A DNA stretch of 64,000 bases, from contig NW_006767440.1 in NCBI RefSeq assembly GCF_000264995.1, positions 1,159,863-1,223,862 on the forward strand, written 5' to 3'. Every line of letters starts with the position of its first letter. Position 1 is the stretch's first letter. The stretch comes from Punctularia strigosozonata HHB-11173 SS5 (Eukaryota; Basidiomycota; Agaricomycetes; Corticiales; Punctulariaceae). Of the stretch, positions 22,949-32,800 are shown piece after piece. The translations under genes were made by a program, and so were the position numbers. The notes under the pieces are model-generated. The model was given only the letters and a program-made list of their open reading frames with translations, did not search any database and was not told where the DNA came from.

Positions 22949-23853
22949 ATGGATTCCACACCGCAAGTAGAAGGTGAACTTTACATTCCAACCTGGATCA
23001 TCTACGATCGTCTTACTTGGTAACTCGTTGCTCCAGGCGATCACCACCAACATCATGCTCATTCGCATGACTTTACCGAAGCCAACCGGCAACACTTCAA
23101 CACCAGTGTAGAAGCCGCACATCACGCAGATCGGCCCGACTATCTCAAGATTGCGAAGAAGGTTGGGAAATTGATCGTGGATGCCTACCCTTTCGACGAG
23201 GAAAAGACGACGCTCATGGATTTCGCTTGCGGTACAGGTTGGCGCCAGGATCGTATTGCTCCATACGTGCAAGCATAACTGACCGCTTCCCCAGGTGGTT
23301 TATCCAGGGAACTTGCTCCTCACGTGAAATCCATCGTCGGAGTTGACATCAGTCAAAGCATGGTCGATGAGTTCAACCGCCGAGTGAGTAACCAGGGAAT
23401 ACCTCCGGAGGAGATGAAAGCCGTATGCACGGATCTCCAAGCCGCAGAAGGAGCGCTCGACGGGCAAAAATTCGACGTGGTCGTGGTCTGTATCTTTTTC
23501 GGCGTACTATGGTTCGAAAGAGGTGACCGGTTTCGTGATCCTAGTGCCTTGCTGCTTATCACCATTTTGCCTCACCTTCGGAGGTGAGCCGAACGCTGGT
23601 GTACTTTCTGAAGCCAGGAGGAGCGCTCTTCGTGATGGACGTCATGAAGAATCCGTCTGGAGAAGTCGTCATTCCGGCGACCCACAACCACGTCGTCCCT
23701 CACCCCTTCGGGTTCGACGAAGCAGATATGCGAGTTATACTGGAGGGCGCCGGTCTCGAGAACTTCAATTATCAGAAGGCGCTCTCGGCTACCATGAGAG
23801 GTAACAAGGCAGACCTATTCATTGCCAATGCCTCCAAACCCGCTGTGCATTGA
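22949..23853 (+). CDS. Class I SAM-dependent methyltransferase
   Basis: Four exons (22949-22973, 23037-23237, 23295-23485, 23545-23853) encode 241 residues. The first exon is only 25 nt. A His-rich stretch follows (GDHHQHHAHSHDF), then motif I (LMDFACGTGGLSREL), motif II (VGVDISQSMVDEFN), motif IV (FDVVVCLAAYHHF, rebuilt across the third splice) and the post-motif FLKPGGALFVMD. This is the Methyltransf_25/11 (UbiE-like) fold that binds S-adenosylmethionine; the acceptor substrate is unknown. Fungal relatives are small cytosolic enzymes of secondary or hexaprenyl-type metabolism, but nothing in the neighbourhood points to a pathway. It converges on REV1, with 199 bp between stop codons. Confidence 0.9.
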
Positions 23854-24052
23854 TGCCTCAGGCTGCAGCATGTCTCTTTTGGTGGGGTACTGGATTGATT
23901 GATTGTTATCTCGATGCATTCATTCTGAATTGGTGTTTTGATATAATAATCACGTACATCGGAATGCTATGGATACAATGCGTGGTATACATGAATTTCC
24001 GTTAGCGATACAAGACAAAGAACGATGATGACAACTACGAGAAGAAACAGAT

Positions 24053-27000
24053 CTAGCGCACTGAAACGTTACCACCAAATCGTTTCCTAGAAACGACATC
24101 CATTCGACCCTTCACCTCACGGAAGGCCTTCCACCAACTCCGTCCCACCATCTCCGAAGTGATTCTGCCCTCTGGATCCACAGGCATGTCCCCCTGAACA
24201 TGTTCCCATACACCGAAGTGTGTTCTGAGCACAATTAGCCACCACTTCAGCACGCCTATCGCCTTGTGGATCCCGCCGTCCGTCGACCGCTCGCCCTCCA
24301 TGCTCTGCACGAGGAACTTGGCGAAGAACTCGACGTCCCTGTCGTTCGGGAGTTGTTCGCGGAACCGGTCCACCCACGCTTCTATCAGGTCCTGAACATC
24401 CTCCGCAAGCGTGAAGAACAGCTTCTTCCCCTGAGATATCTGCTTCAAGAAGGGCGGTTCGGGATGATACACGTGAGGTGGCGGCGGGGGAATGTATCGC
24501 ACTGCGTTGGGGTCCTTGATGAAACCCGTCATGGGCTTCAAGGGCTTGCGTTTACCCTCGGCGAAGACAACCGTTGCCCCGCCCAGACCCCTCGCATATC
24601 GTGCACCGGCCAGTTGCTCGCGTTGGACGTCCTTAGGGAGCATAGTGAAGATGTCCGGATCGATGTCAAGCTCCCGCAATTCATCAGGGGTGACATTGGC
24701 TACTGAAGTGGTCGGGAATATAATCTTTTGCTTTTGCTTTCCCTTGTCGATCTTGGCAAAGATCGTAGTATTCTTCGGAGAGCGCACCCCCCGATTCTTC
24801 GGGGCCAAGGCCTGGGTGATGCGCTTGACATTGGATCCTTTCACCGACAACTTGAACAGCGGAGCCTTGACAGGCGACGCACGCAAACCGAGGTTTACGG
24901 GCGCCGGTGGGATCGGAGCCACAAGGGGAGAGGCTGATCGTCGTTTATATTCAACCTCCAGCTCCTTCCGTACGTCGTCTGGCAGGGCATCAAACACGGA
25001 CCGATCCACCTGAGAAAAGGAAGGCAGGTCAACCGGAGCGGCAGGAATAGATGTCTTAATGTTCTTCATGGCGACCTCCTTCAACGGAGAAACTGACCGA
25101 CGTTGGTATTCCGCCTGCAGTTCCTTCCGGACATCGTCCGGTAGGGCGTCGAATACGGACCGGTCCACCTGGGAGAACGAGGGAAGGTCGACTGGAACGG
25201 CAGGAACAGGCAGATTAGCGTCCTTCAGGGCAGCCTCAGCCTTGTCAGGCACATCAATCATAATGACTTCGTCGTTTTGAGAGGGCGGCAGGACAACGGT
25301 GGGAGGCGCGGCGGGCGGTGGTTGTCCTTGCTTCGCTTGGTTGATTGGCATCGCGGCAGCAGGTGGGAAGAACAGTTTGCCTTGCCCTTGGTCAGGCACG
25401 GATTGGGCGACTTTCTGAAGCTTCTGGATTTGTATACCGATGCCTCTTAACTCCTTCGGGTCAAACGCTAGGGACTTGAGTAGTCTCCATGCGCAGTCGC
25501 CAATAAGCTTAGGTTCACTTGTCGTGCGCAATAATGCTGCCTGCTTCGTAAATTGCTGACACCACCCATGCCCCATGAACTACACTGCGATCAGCTCGCT
25601 ATCGCGGTATGATTGTCATTTAATGCACCTTAGGAGCTTCGACAGGCGCTTCGGGGTGACGTTTGAGAATCTTGAGGGTCAAAGACTGGCCGCGCATGTG
25701 GATAGCATCAAGTCGACGAGCTACCTCTTCAGCCATTTGATAGATAAAATGTTCAGCCTGGCCATTGTCCTCAAAGCGGATACCATACTGCAAAATCGTT
25801 AGCCCTTTTCTCCAGCAGCACGTACTAGACTTACATTGATGTCGCAGCTAACGCTCTTCCTGGGTTTATCACTCTCTAGTTTCTTATCATCAATCCCTCG
25901 TATAGCCTTCCATACTGTGTCTCCCGTGCCCTTCCCTAGAGCATCGCAAAGGGTGCCTTTGCTCCTTTTCCGTAGTTCGCCAAGGATCGTCGTCCCCAGC
26001 TTCTCCTGGGCCTTCTGCGCTGAGGCATACCCGAAGCCGTGAAGATCGTCCAGCTTTAATGGCGCCAGAAAATCCTCTGCTTCATCTGGATGAATGTGCA
26101 AAGCACCGGCCGGTTTCGCGCGTCGGTTTGCGAGGCGCGCGAGCATGACGTTGTGTGCAATACCGATGCTAACTTCGCAATTCGTAGCTGCCCGTACCTG
26201 CGAACGTATACGGTTCGCAAGCTCTAAAGCAGGGTCCACAGCAGGTTCGCTCGTAGTAGAGGTGGAGTGCGCATGATCGATGATTCGACTCGTGACATCA
26301 ATCAGTGCTTCATCCACCGACACGGCTTGCAGGTCATCCGCATAACGCATCAAGATAGTGTAGAACTCCAATGAGTACTTCTTGTACCTGCCGTTGAGGG
26401 GCTGATTAGCAAGCGTAACGAGTACTCAGAGTGAAGTCACGAACGTTTCGAACTCATAGGGTATGGTAATTATGCCTGGACAAAGTTGTCTGGCCTGTTG
26501 CAAACTGGAGACAGGTGAGAATCTCCCGAAACGTCCCATATGCTTACGACGAACCTCATCCCGCCCCGTATACCAAACTCGCGCGCCTCGTAGCTAGCGC
26601 TCGCAATCTCGCTCGTACTAGCATTGCCACCTTGAGCACCCTGCGAATGGCACACAACAACGGGTTTGCCCTTCAACTGCGGGCGTGAAACCAGGCCGGC
26701 GGATACGAAGAAGCAGTCGAAATCACAATGCATAATGACACGGCGTTTGGAATCGGCAGAACGACTCGCATCTTTGACCTTCCTCACCAACGGGTTCAAA
26801 GCCAGGGCTGCTCCTCGCATACTGACCGAATCTGCGATCGCCGCAGCAGCCCGGGTATCTTTCTCGCAAATATTGTCGCCGTCCGCTTCTGCTGGTATGT
26901 CGATTGATGACTGCGATGGGTCACCCTGGCTGCTTTGCTCTGGTTCGTCCACGTCCGCTTTGTCCACGATATGCTCTGCCTTCTCTTGCGCCTGCTGGAG

Positions 27001-29091
27001 CAGCCCGCGTAGCTCAGCCTTCCACATGCTCAGATGATGGAGTCGAGAGTTCTTGTAATATCCTATCGACACGGAAAATCTAAAATTAACACGATGGACA
27101 GCGAGTCGAGGTTAACCATCGACAAACCCTCTATGAAACCTTCGCTGATACTAGTGTGAGCCTTGCGCCACTCTACGTTCTTCATTGCCTTCTGAGCGGC
27201 AAGGTTCGAGTCGTGCATAGCGTAACCCGGCACCCGCTGCGCTTGATCTGGGGAGACTGGGTCGGTAGTGTACAGCGCATGATCTGCCTTCGGGGTGGTT
27301 GGCGTGCGAGGTACGAACACAGGGAGTGCTTTGTTGGGCGTGCTTGGCGTGGACACATGAGGGGAACCCAACGCTTTTGGCTTCTTTGGAGTTTGAGGGG
27401 CGGTGGCTGGCACCTTCGGTGCGGCTTGAGCGTCAACTGCGGAGTCGCGGCTTGCTGCTGATGCTCCGGTGCTGTGCTTGACACCCGCAGTTCCCTTGAA
27501 TAGCATTGGTCTCGGTACCACCTTGCCCTGATAGTCTTCCTCGGCCCTCTCCTCCACCTTCCATATGTAAGCCTGCCAGGGCAGGAGGGCGCCCTGCGCG
27601 ATGCTATCTACAAGCCATGCAGGAGTGACGACCTTCATACGCGCAAATTCTCGTATCTTCGCAGCTGTAAGCGTAGATGTGATTATATGCGTTCTGGACG
27701 AGCGTGAACATGAGGTCGCGGTATTGTAGAACGAGAACTTACATGTACGATTTCTGGTCCATGTACGCTTGATATGTGCCTCCGTGTTGTACGATCAGTT
27801 CTCGAAGTTTGTGCTCAGGCGGGTCCGTATATCCGTTAATCTGATCAAATATGACGACTGTGAATGTTGGTGAATGCGTTCAAGGAAGTATACGCACGTA
27901 TAGTGACAACCCCTTGAAGATATCGCTCCTCTTCTCTTGTGCGCTATCAAGCACGTCCTCTATCTGGGCGTTCTGGACTTGCAACTTGACCCTCTTGCGC
28001 CGCATGAAATCGCTTATCCCACCAAACTTTGATGCCGAGTAGGTATCTTCATCCATATACGACAATCCGTCGCCGGCGAGTGGTCGCGACGTTCCGCTGG
28101 CCGAGCTGCCAACGCCATCGTCATCCACATGCGCCGCGGCCAACGCTGTTGTGGCTTTTAGCACCGGATCGTCCGCAATCGGGGTGCTCGCATGATCACG
28201 TTCCTTGGTAGCTCCTGATGTAAGAGAACTAGAGCTTCCAACGTGCCTCGGGGGCTTGACGGAGGTTGACTGACGCGTGGGTTGGGAAGCGAAAGCGTCC
28301 AACACCCTCTGAGACGTCTTCCGACCTTCGGCCTGGTCCAGTCGATTCCCCGCCACATATTTGTAGTCTGTCCAGGGAAGGAGCCTGCCGGCTTCTACGC
28401 TATCGGTAAGCCAGCTAGGCGTAGCCAATTTCATGTGCTGGAATTCCTTCATCTTCGCTGGAGTCAGGGAGCAGGTGATGACGTGCGTGCTGCGAGCGTT
28501 AAATAAGCAAGCCGCCAGGTAGTATATGAACTGGGCGTACACCAGCGACTTCCGATCTAGATAGGGATGAAACACTCCTCCGTGTTGAATTATCAGTCGT
28601 CGGAGCTCTTGGACGGAAGGGGTGGTGTAACCATTGATCTATCATCCGTGGATTGCCAGTCAGTTCTGACGATTTGAGGCAGAACAGCGACGCACGTATA
28701 TTCTGAGCCCCTCGAAGAACTTACTACTTTCGTCAGCCATCCCTCCGCCGCCATCGCCGTCACTTGGTATTTCTGCGTTCTGAATTTGCAATTTGGCGCG
28801 TTTGCGACGCATATATTCGCCCCATCCATTGAACTTCGATGCACCGTATGTGCTGGTATCGTCCATGTACGATGATCCATCTTCAGTGGTGAGTTGCTCT
28901 AGAGTAGCCGGGTGTTCTGACTTCGGCGAGGGAGAGCGATGGCGTTTTCGAAGCTGCACAGCTGGCTGTAAATCTGTAGCTTTCGCCTGAATCGGTTCAT
29001 AGGAGGCTTCGGCTTCGTCGATTGCGTTCAGAATGTCTGGGGTATACTCGTCGAAGAGGTCTGGGTAACTTGACGTCGAAGGTTCAGACAT
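24053..29091 (-). CDS. REV1: DNA repair deoxycytidyl transferase / translesion polymerase REV1, with duplicated BRCT module
   Basis: Ten exons, transcribed leftward: 29091-28696, 28638-28541, 28489-27898, 27840-27743, 27693-27128, 27062-26555, 26504-26445, 26387-25835, 25787-25629 and 25579-24053. They give 1518 residues, longer than the usual 1000-1250. Order: BRCT-1 (~122-220), BRCT-2 (~352-450), then the region around YYKNSRLHHLS (~584). The Y-family catalytic core follows, with CDFDCFFVS (~695) and SVDEALIDV (~795) supplying the metal-binding acidic residues, then the little-finger domain ending PVEAPKFMGHG. After it come two near-identical ubiquitin-binding motifs (VFDALPDDVRKEL, ~1148 and ~1199) and a third looser one (IFTMLPKDVQREQL, ~1316). 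A C-terminal domain (VEFFAKFLVQSMEG...GVLKWW) for binding other polymerases and Rev7 ends the protein. REV1 works in the nucleus in error-prone lesion bypass. The N-terminal linker plus BRCT exists twice with the same intron pattern. No broken motif is seen. Confidence 0.95.
27555..28070 (-). repeat. REV1 internal duplication, copy 2 (linker + BRCT-2)
   Basis: Encodes LSYMDEDTYSASKF, then DFMRRKRVKLQVQNAQ, then KGLSLY, a 57-nt intron, INGYTDPPEHKLRELIVQHG, a 49-nt intron and THIITSTLTAAK through LLPWQAY. Both introns interrupt at the same codon positions and phases as in copy 1, and the exon between them is 98 nt in both copies. Confidence 0.85.
28365..28880 (-). repeat. REV1 internal duplication, copy 1 (linker + BRCT-1)
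   Basis: Encodes SSYMDDTSTYGASKF, then EYMRRKRAKLQIQNAE, then EGLRIY, a 57-nt intron, INGYTTPSVQELRRLIIQHG, a 51-nt intron and THVITCSLTPAK through LLPWTDY. Limits are approximate, taken from where similarity to copy 2 begins and ends. Confidence 0.85.
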
Positions 29092-29821
29092 AGCTCGGGG
29101 GCTGCTCGTTATGTTAATCTCCAGCTTCGGAAGCTAAGCTGAGCACAAAGCAGAGTATCATTGCTTGAAGGCGTCCAACTCGCGTGAACCGTGGTCACTG
29201 TCCAGACCAAGGAAGCTGCCGCTGACGCGAGCGTCGGAGCGAAGGGCTTCTCTGCCATAATGCCGCGTCACGGGATCGATTCAGGGGCATTGCGCCCCCC
29301 AGCTCGCACGACGTCACGGTCGACGCAGCCTCGCCAATGGCATTGGCAACGCCCACTGCGCGTCCCATGCTCTACTGACCATGACCATCGTGGACGGGCA
29401 ATGCTACTTCCCGTCTCCGTGCTCATCAACATCAAGCAAACCGTCAGTCCTGCCGTCTACGCCTCCCCGAATAGTCACCTTCCGTGACCTGCTGGCCCGT
29501 CAGCGCGGTCGGCCTGGGTGGACCTACTCTCCGAACACTTTCGGCTGAGACGGAGCTTATTCGGTTCCCTCCCCGCTTTGACTGTTTGTGCGCGATGCGC
29601 GGACGAATGCACTGGCAGCTCAAGCCGCTAGCCAGGGCAGTTATTTGTGATATGCGCTCCTTGGAGATATTCCATCAGACTTCTTTCATACGCTTTCGCG
29701 ACGTGTGAGGTTCCTTCGCTTCCGGGCTATATATCCTTATAACCTCTCATGAGTTGTTTGCTACGTCCATCCGAGTTTCGCTCTCGCCCCCATCCGTGCT
29801 TTTGCCAAGGCATCGGCAAAC
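29092..29821. other. Divergent promoter region between REV1 and GH3 genes
   Basis: No coding frame recognised. The stretch must hold promoters for both divergently transcribed genes; a TATA box for the GH3 gene lies at 29727-29734. No TATA box was found for REV1. Confidence 0.45.
29727..29734 (+). promoter_or_regulatory. TATA box of the GH3 gene
   Basis: CTATATAT lies 88-95 bp upstream of the ATG at 29822. Confidence 0.5.
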
Positions 29822-32800
29822 ATGGTCCGTTCAGTCATTGTCGGAACTCTGGGCCTCCTTCCTTTCGTTGTCGCCCAGCGTACGTAATGCCTCGTAAAAT
29901 GCAGACCTCCACCCTCACATTGAGGGTTGATCGGATTTTAGTGGGCAACTCCCAGTGGGATGATGCGTACACCAAAGCGCAAGCGGCCGTTGCGAAGCTC
30001 TCCCAGAGCGACAAGGTGTCGCTCGCGACAGGGACCGGCGAATTCGGCGGCAATTGCACTGGCAACATTGGGCCGATTTCAAGCATTGGCTTTCCCGGGC
30101 TCTGTCTGGAAGGTGCGACCCACGTAAACGCGATATCCCTCGTTGACAACTGATTGTCCCATGGCCATCGTTCAGATAGTCCGCTGGGCGTTCGGGGCAC
30201 GGATCTCGTATCCGCTTTTCCTGCGTATGTCCCTCGAGTTCGTAGACTTGAGTAAATTGCTGTACTAACAATCTCTTGCGCATACATGCAGTGGGATCAA
30301 TGCGGCCGCCACGTTAGACTTCTCAGAATGCCAACAAAATAAGCCTCGCTGACGTCTTATTGACTGCTCAGATTCAGCCGAGATCTGATCCAACAACGCG
30401 GCGCGGCCATGGGCCAGGAGTTCCGCGGAAAGGGCGTGAACGTGCAGCTTGGACCCATGATGTTGGTCATGCGAATTCCAGATCTCAAATTCTCCGCGAA
30501 GCAACCGTCCTGACATTCCTTTTGCGCTTAGGAATCTCATGCGCAATCCCGATGCGGGTAGAAATTGGGAAGGTTTCGGTGGTGATCCGTACCTTTCCGG
30601 CGAAGCAGCGTTCGAAACTATCACCGGCATTCAAGCTCAGGGTGTGCAAGCCTGCATGAGTGAGCCAATCGCGATCTCTTCGACTTCAGCGAAACCCTCA
30701 TTTCGTTTCAGAGCATATCATCGCTAACGAGCAAGAGCACTTCCGCACGTTGGAGACTTCTAACGTGGATGACAGAACTATACACGAGCTCTACCTCCAT
30801 CCGGTAAGCTATATCACTCAAAGCGCCAATTCTGTTTCTCATCTTAGCTTAGTTCCTCCGCAGCGTTCAAGCCAACGTCGCGGCCGCGATGTGCAGCTAT
30901 AACAGGAGTTCGTCTTGGCTACTTCACTCAACATACAGCTGAGGTGCTCAAGGCTACCTCACACAGTCAACGGCACCTACGCCTGCGAGAATGATCACAT
31001 CCTGAATGACCTGATCAAGACCGAGCTTGGATTCCGGGGCTGTACGTCGCGCAGTTCGATTTCACATTACCCCAACGTAGTCTCATTGAATTCCCTTACT
31101 ACTAGATGTCATGTCCGACTGGTTTGCAACGACTTCTACCTCTGGCGCCGTTAACGGAGGCTTGGACGTACGTGATTATGATCAACGCGCTGCGATGTCC
31201 AGAGCTAAGCCGCTCGCAGATGGAGATGCCGGGTGGTCTCTATGAGGATTTGTTGGGTTTCTTCGGCGATCTGCTGATCCTCGCGAACGATATCGGGACC
31301 GTGTCGGATGCCAGATTGGACGAGATGGCTACGCGCATCCTTGCGGGCTGGTATCTCCTCGGCCAGGACCAGGGCTACCCAACGGTCAACTTCGATGCGA
31401 ACGACGCGAACAGCAAAGTGAATCAGCACGTTAACGTCCAAGGAAACCATAAGGAGTAAGCGCCTACAAACCCGTCTATGTACTGACAATCACGTTGATG
31501 TTTCCGTAGAATAATCAGGACAATTGGTGCTGCGTCCACTGTGCTGCTGAAGAACACGGGAGGCGTCCTTCCCTTGCATAAGCCCAGGACCATCGGGATC
31601 ATTGGTGCGCGTCACCCTCCATTATCGTAATTTTAGCTCTTTGCGACCGTGCTCCCAGGCAGCGATGCGGGCCCCAACCCGAACGGCCTTAACAGCTGTG
31701 GTGATCTCAACGCATGCGACTCCGGTATTCTTGCGATGGGCTGGGGCGTACGTGATTTCTCATATTCATCCTCTCAAACGCTGACCTCAGCCCACAGAGT
31801 GGGTAAAGATTGTTCTCTGCCATACGTGTAATGAATACCGGGCTCATCCCTTTTAACGCACGTAGCTCCGGCAGTTTCCCGTATCTGATCGCTGTGAGCC
31901 CTGTTCCCTCGACGCTTTCTTTGCACGCGGAGGCTCACGTCATTGCGGAATACAGCCTGTGGACGCGATTACGAATCGCTCCGCTCAAGATGGGACTGTG
32001 GTCACCTCAAGCCTGTCTGATACCGATGTTAAGGCTGCCGCGAGCGTAGCAGCCGGCAAGGTGCGCACCCATTTCAAGCGTCACGGAAGATCGTGCCTGA
32101 CGAACCTGCTTATTCCAAGGATTACGCATTCGTCTTCCTGAGTTCCGACTCCGGCGAGGATGGCAGCCTGGTGGAGTTAAACACTGGCGACCGCAACGAC
32201 CTGAACGCATGGCACAGCGGAGATGCTCTGTGCGCCTCATATGTTATTATCTACACATCTATACAGCTGACGAGTGTTTCCTGCACAGCGTTGAAGCTGT
32301 GGCCGCGGTGAACAATAACACGGTGGTGATAGTGAATAGCGTCGGACCGATGACCGTCGAGAAGTGGATTGATCATCCCAATGGTGCGTGACTACTCTGG
32401 AAAGGGCGAACAACATGCTTGAAGCGCTGGTTAAACAGTGACCGCGTTGGTTTGGAGCGGACTGGCTGGGCAAGAAGCCGGTAATTCGCTTGTAGATGTG
32501 TTGTATGGCGTATACAACCCAAGGTATTTTGTTGAGATCCGCTGTCTACCTAGCCATATAGCTAACTGCCTGATAGCGGCCGGCTTCCGTACACCATCGC
32601 AAAGGATCCCGACGATTACGCGTCCCACTGGCAATTAGCCCTCGACATCGACTACACAGAAGGTATCGTGCCGGTTGACGGACTCAGAATGTTTGACTGA
32701 AAAGCGTGCAGGGCTTTTCATCGATTACAGGCACTTTGATCAGGCTGGTATCACGCCTCGATATGAATTTGGGTTTGGGTTGTCTTACACAACCTTCGCC

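Follow-up and report, generated by a model that had tools for sequence, protein, structure and literature searches.

The gene for REV1 in the basidiomycete Punctularia strigosozonata HHB-11173 SS5 appears to have undergone a tandem duplication within its own coding sequence. We analysed a stretch of 64,000 nucleotides (nt) from contig NW_006767440.1 (positions 1,159,863 to 1,223,862; hereafter the window, numbered from its first letter), and the best reading of its sequence is a single REV1 gene in which an N-terminal module, comprising a BRCT domain and a segment at the place of the M1 helix, was duplicated in tandem and took two introns along. It is very probable that the predicted protein carries two such modules. 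An intragenic tandem duplication had been proposed here in an earlier note on the window, and is supported by the REV1-type character of both BRCTs, by an open exon 3 and by the matching positions and phases of the introns.

The spliced model of REV1 runs on the minus strand from an ATG at 29091, the earliest start codon within the open frame, to a stop at 24053. It comprises 10 exons and 9 introns, the latter all GT-AG and 47–65 nt in length, and encodes 1518 residues. Both this length and the presence of two BRCTs had been predicted, and both were borne out by the spliced translation and by Pfam. Module 1 covers residues 71–218 (~552 bp of genomic DNA) and module 2 residues 305–450 (~544 bp), with their starts 810 bp apart. 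The earlier note had described two consecutive units of ~510 bp, each made of a linker and a BRCT; the two copies and their BRCTs stand, but the units have the sizes and spacing given here, and each also spans the place of the M1 helix.

24053–29091, minus strand: REV1 gene (spliced model, Pfam domains, single genomic REV1_C match)
28330–28881, minus strand: module 1, with lead, M1-like segment, BRCT1, LLPW tail and introns 1 and 2 (alignment)
27528–28071, minus strand: module 2, its parts ordered as in module 1, with introns 3 and 4 (alignment)

The order of parts is common to both modules: a lead (YMD..TY.ASKF), a basic segment (MRRKR.KLQ.QNA), the BRCT and a tail (LLPW..Y). Local alignment of the two halves gave a score of 398, compared with at most 60 in 500 shuffles, and ran weakly past the module ends. 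Between the modules lies a linker of about 86 codons, which shows no likeness to the N-terminal extension (469 of 500 shuffles scored as high) or to the part of the protein that follows BRCT2 (338 of 500). When a two-row alignment of the modules was run against IMG/VR and GTDB genome contigs, 22 and 44 pattern matches were obtained, none of which encodes a relative.

Judged by database comparison, both domains are REV1-type BRCTs. A search with hidden Markov models had been expected to find them at residues ~122–220 and ~352–450; indeed, with the modules scanned apart, Pfam BRCT matched 122–195 and 352–426. The best PDB match of BRCT1 was human REV1 (2ebw; E 1.6e-23, 86.6 bits) and that of BRCT2 was yeast Rev1 (2m2i; E 1.1e-23, 87.0 bits), and for each copy the top five PDB sequences were REV1, at E 8e-21 or better. 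The next protein was TOPBP1, at E 0.00076 for copy 1, 6.1e-5 for copy 2 and 6.2e-6 for the two-row profile. TOPBP1 and Rad4 likewise hold several BRCTs in one DNA-damage protein, but even the best match among them falls far short of those to REV1. RFC1, a different protein with one BRCT, was not represented by any chain among the PDB matches listed (18 for copy 1, 25 for copy 2 and 12 for the two-row profile). A whole-genome search with the BRCT family returned 6 matches, none at the REV1 locus, presumably because introns split both domains, and an NCBIfam scan of the N-terminal 225 residues returned no family.

28360–28728, minus strand: BRCT1, residues 122–208, interrupted by introns 1 and 2 (Pfam; 2ebw)
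27564–27930, minus strand: BRCT2, residues 352–438, interrupted by introns 3 and 4 (Pfam; 2m2i)

The introns of the two modules occupy matching positions. Introns 1 and 3 are each 57 nt long, in phase 0, and follow a Tyr codon, whereas intron 2 has 51 nt and intron 4 has 49 nt, both in phase 2; the spliced model thus agrees with the intron pattern that had been claimed, a 57-nt intron after Tyr and a second of ~50 nt in phase 2. The exons enclosed between them (exon 2, 28638–28541; exon 4, 27840–27743) had been called identical, which holds for their length of 98 nt but not for their sequence. Among the 36 pairs that can be formed from the nine introns, introns 2 and 4 came out as the most similar under three of the four scoring schemes used (dinucleotide shuffles: 0 of 300) and as the second most similar under the remaining one (10 of 300). 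In contrast, introns 1 and 3 showed no sequence similarity in any of the four. Most likely the introns were carried along in the duplication, with sequence evidence coming from the 2/4 pair. The likeness of this pair persists despite strongly diverged flanking exons, possibly through acceptor-proximal constraint or gene conversion.

28639–28695, minus strand: intron 1, 57 nt, phase 0 (spliced model)
28490–28540, minus strand: intron 2, 51 nt, phase 2, similar to intron 4 (spliced model, intron comparison)
27898–28489, minus strand: exon 3, in which the last part of BRCT1, the linker and the first part of module 2 are fused (spliced model)
27841–27897, minus strand: intron 3, 57 nt, phase 0 (spliced model)
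27694–27742, minus strand: intron 4, 49 nt, phase 2 (spliced model)

Exon 3, which spans 592 nt, begins within BRCT1 and ends where BRCT2 starts. It has no stop in frame, whereas the two alternative frames contain 8 and 7, and it stayed open in only 1 of 5000 mononucleotide shuffles. Since the ends of the homology fall inside exons, we regard it as a fusion exon. The 51 nt of intron 2 are divisible by 3 and contain no in-frame stop, so that retention would add 17 residues to BRCT1. Such retention is countered by the likeness to intron 4, whose length is not divisible by 3, and by the fact that the spliced product aligns with yeast without gaps.

The duplication is old, as far as sequence divergence can tell. 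BRCT1 and BRCT2 are identical at 47 of 88 residues, which may be compared with 40/88 (yeast) and 41/87 (human) for copy 1, 43/88 and 40/87 for copy 2, and 39/87 between the human and yeast REV1 BRCTs themselves. Expressed as a fraction of the distance to yeast and to human, the Kimura distance between the copies is 0.81 (bootstrap 95% interval 0.57–1.10) and 0.79 (0.57–1.08), respectively. Over 92 codons of the BRCTs the non-synonymous (Ka) and synonymous (Ks) divergences were 0.40 and 1.60, and over a longer, 204-codon alignment Ks reached 2.41, near saturation. Where the residues are identical, the same codon is used at 34 of 69 positions, somewhat above the 24.9 expected (z 2.42). Aligning the units with their introns had been suggested as a way of dating the event: one intron pair proved alike and the other did not, and these data do not fix a date. 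A common ancestor of the modules in the fungal line would be favoured by the shared intron positions and by the well-conserved lead and M1-like segment.

Neither copy looks decayed, since both keep conserved positions equally. Of the 39 BRCT columns common to human and yeast, copy 1 retains 28 and copy 2 retains 29, and positions that match an outgroup in one copy alone number 12 and 13, respectively; decay of one copy was set aside on this ground. HGG is kept in both copies, from residues 151 and 381. It includes the glycine altered by the yeast rev1-1 mutation, G193 according to a passage of the review PMC11276120, which is the second G of HGG by the yeast numbering printed in the PDB alignment. 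The old age and intact appearance of both copies make it probable that the doubled module is in use.

The remainder of the protein is that of a REV1. The whole-protein Pfam scan gave BRCT_2 in two stretches (E 2.8e-27), BRCT in two stretches, the Y-family polymerase core (IMS, E 1.8e-42; IMS_C, E 1.7e-17), three UBM stretches and REV1_C (E 3e-22). DFDCFF (residue 697), VDEALID (797) and NSRLHHLS are present, motifs that we take to have roles in dCMP transferase activity. A genome-wide search for REV1_C gave one match at E<=0.1, namely this gene, and a search with the REV1 module gave 5 matches at the same threshold, all inside it. It is therefore the only REV1 that we found.

26126–26727, minus strand: Y-family core, IMS residues 696–860, with DFDCFF and VDEALID (Pfam)
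24065–24400, minus strand: REV1 C-terminal domain, residues 1404–1515 (Pfam)
24887–25204, minus strand: two UBM repeats, residues 1136–1188 and 1189–1241 (direct repeat, Pfam UBM)
24587–24691, minus strand: third UBM-like motif, residues 1307–1341 (17.5 bits alone)

The UBM region holds a second internal duplication, in which repeats of 53 residues lie in tandem (a 152-nt direct repeat with 75% identity). In the whole protein the three UBM stretches together scored 32.3 bits against a cut-off of 23.3; scanned alone they gave 22.2, 20.3 and 17.5 bits, each below it. Over 51 positions the repeats share 36 identical residues (Met and Trp excluded), of which 15 use the same codon compared with 11.7 expected. 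Codon matches so little above chance, despite the residue identity, indicate that this duplication is not recent either.

Overall, the protein resembles canonical REV1 of human and S. cerevisiae in its REV1-type BRCT, Y-family core, UBMs and REV1_C and, by position only, in its M1-like segment. It departs from canonical REV1 in that the M1-BRCT module is present twice, and in that there are three UBM-like motifs, the first tandemly duplicated, where a passage of the review PMC9225081 describes two UBMs in Rev1. The wording "Rev1's single BRCT domain" in part of the preprint PMC12871630 agrees with one BRCT as typical. We consider this count typical of REV1 and not defining, so that the protein described here would be a variant within the REV1 family. 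A two-BRCT REV1 was not found described in the literature searched (titles and the starts of abstracts among the papers listed, with few subscription journals), and we make no claim that it is absent from print; the REV1 passages of PMC6264785, PMC11061109 and PMC4493104 mention no second BRCT. Elsewhere around the locus, an Rfam scan of 23000–30500 gave no match, and the raw sequence at about 23000–23900, past the REV1 stop, may contain a separate gene.

The basic segments sit 16 residues before BRCT1 and 13 before BRCT2 and are nearly alike. A passage of the preprint PMC12871630 places the M1 helix 10–20 residues upstream of the BRCT. A two-row AlphaFold2 model made the segment helical with low confidence (mean pLDDT 59.3, and 76 over residues 21–30 of the modelled piece). 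Position and this weak helix model suggest that the segments may correspond to M1, the match to the yeast sequence being weak. Human REV1 presumably has a closer motif at the M1 place, WG.YM..K..KL..Q.

28777–28821, minus strand: M1-like segment 1, residues 91–105 (position, likeness to module 2)
27970–28014, minus strand: M1-like segment 2, residues 324–338 (position, low-confidence helix model)

In yeast, according to passages of the review PMC11276120, the M1 helix and BRCT of one Rev1 make contact with the primer-template and with the Rev3 subunit, the suggested Rev1:Pol zeta ratio is 1:1, and the Rev1 BRCT is positioned to reach PCNA, with a BRCT-PCNA Kd of about 79 uM. Passages of PMC12871630 report that M1 is required to restrain Pol zeta on undamaged DNA and that the Rev1 N-terminal domain favours DNA with a recessed 5'-phosphate. 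For P. strigosozonata, we infer that both M1-BRCT modules would be expressed together and reside in one chain, where about 115 flexible residues would connect the end of BRCT1 with the second M1-like segment. One module could dock on Pol zeta and DNA, which would leave the other available to bind a second PCNA subunit or the 5' end of the gap. The outcome would be that multivalent contacts keep the protein more firmly at gaps marked by PCNA, and perhaps that M1 brakes the run-on of Pol zeta more strongly. This narrows down the suggestion of the earlier note that two BRCTs could change the binding of PCNA, DNA ends or phosphopeptides. Taken as a whole, with its two modules, docking, avidity and brake, this mechanism is plausible and is put forward tentatively. 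In its favour, REV3 is encoded in the genome (REV3_N, E 1.1e-14). A bolder version, which we regard as doubtful, is that one REV1-Pol zeta complex spans both ends of a single-stranded gap, the primer-template next to Rev3 being bound by one module and the recessed 5'-phosphate, or a second PCNA subunit, by the other. The reach of the linker would then set the patch length, the three UBM-like motifs would add multivalent binding of ubiquitinated PCNA, and the arrangement might be fixed across a fungal lineage.

Several observations weigh against this interpretation. Regarding the origin of the copies, the BRCT columns alone pair them in just 1116 of 2000 bootstraps, with 723 and 161 for the other two four-point groupings, and this weak grouping makes a very deep origin compatible with the BRCTs taken alone. 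Regarding M1, each segment queried alone in the PDB returned nothing at E up to 10. Yeast Rev1 residues 141–157 were obtained via joined queries, in which the HMMER pairing with residues 146–153 shares just a Q outside the added yeast letters; the better register (L, Q, Q; KLQIQ/TLQDQ) is imposed by the joined queries and not by HMMER. The AlphaFold2 helix extends into the start of the BRCT, which is a strand in known BRCTs, and both segments have a low hydrophobic moment (0.07 and 0.16). As for function, parts of the preprint PMC12871630 state that M1 adds nothing to DNA binding, that deleting the BRCT changes Pol zeta products modestly, that a bypass role for BRCT-DNA binding is unsupported by its results, and that the PAD is likelier than the BRCT to be the regulatory PCNA contact. 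Finally, REV7 was not identified by family searches that included HORMA. The HORMA exon L017 (G000:C1:2887292-2887699, minus strand) was considered as REV7 and rejected, its best PDB match being the MAD2 chain 4aez_B (E 1.6e-18).

The modest effect of BRCT deletion, together with the preference for the PAD as PCNA contact in those parts of PMC12871630, implies that a second BRCT may matter little. It is possible, if somewhat unlikely, that the two modules are redundant beads of equal function, the second adding little and being kept by mutual back-up or drift. The equal conservation of the copies fits such equivalence, as does the modest deletion effect in yeast; however, pure back-up would not be expected to hold both copies under equal constraint at a Ks of 1.6.

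Alternatively, the modules may have divided their labour, one specialised for instance on PCNA and the other on DNA 5' ends or phosphopeptides. The 41 of 88 BRCT positions that differ would agree with this, as would the fact that copy 1 is closest to a human and copy 2 to a yeast structure, but the conserved columns show no asymmetry, and we regard such specialisation as unlikely. Both it and redundancy nevertheless compete seriously with the proposed mechanism.

A splice switch, by which skipping of exons 2 and 3 or of exons 3 and 4 would yield a one-BRCT hybrid of 1288 residues so that both forms are made, seems improbable. Of the seven exon skips tried, two do preserve the reading frame as far as the normal end and five run into an early stop, but in-frame skipping is an automatic consequence of the duplication. 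To our knowledge, exon skipping is also uncommon in fungi with short introns.

The presence of two BRCTs in one chain might also recall a packed tandem of the BRCA1 type that reads phosphopeptides, and a passage of PMC10386641 counts the REV1 BRCT among single BRCTs that prefer phosphoserine peptides. However, the BRCTs are separated by ~143 residues that include the second M1-like segment, which makes packing unlikely, and our alignment places Asn-Gly in both copies, as in human and yeast REV1, at the position of the Ser/Thr-Gly of the pocket that PMC10386641 describes. DNA ligase IV is a long-linker tandem BRCT according to the same source, so that spacing alone does not rule out a tandem; nevertheless, we consider this reading very improbable. 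That the locus consists of two genes or is an assembly artefact is hardly credible, because an uninterrupted reading frame in exon 3 crosses the junction, the genome has a single REV1_C match, and copies that are ~50% identical in protein would not be produced by an assembly error.

A REV1 with a tandemly duplicated module could alter the targeting or the limiting of mutagenic repair. The role of the REV1 BRCT and M1 is debated, with PCNA, DNA ends, phosphopeptides and the braking of Pol zeta all proposed in passages of PMC11276120 and PMC12871630. A natural two-module REV1 whose copies are under equal constraint would offer a ready test that separates dose from kind, as deleting one module leaves its partner in place. 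If mushroom-forming fungi share the doubled module, it would represent a lineage-wide change in mutagenic bypass.
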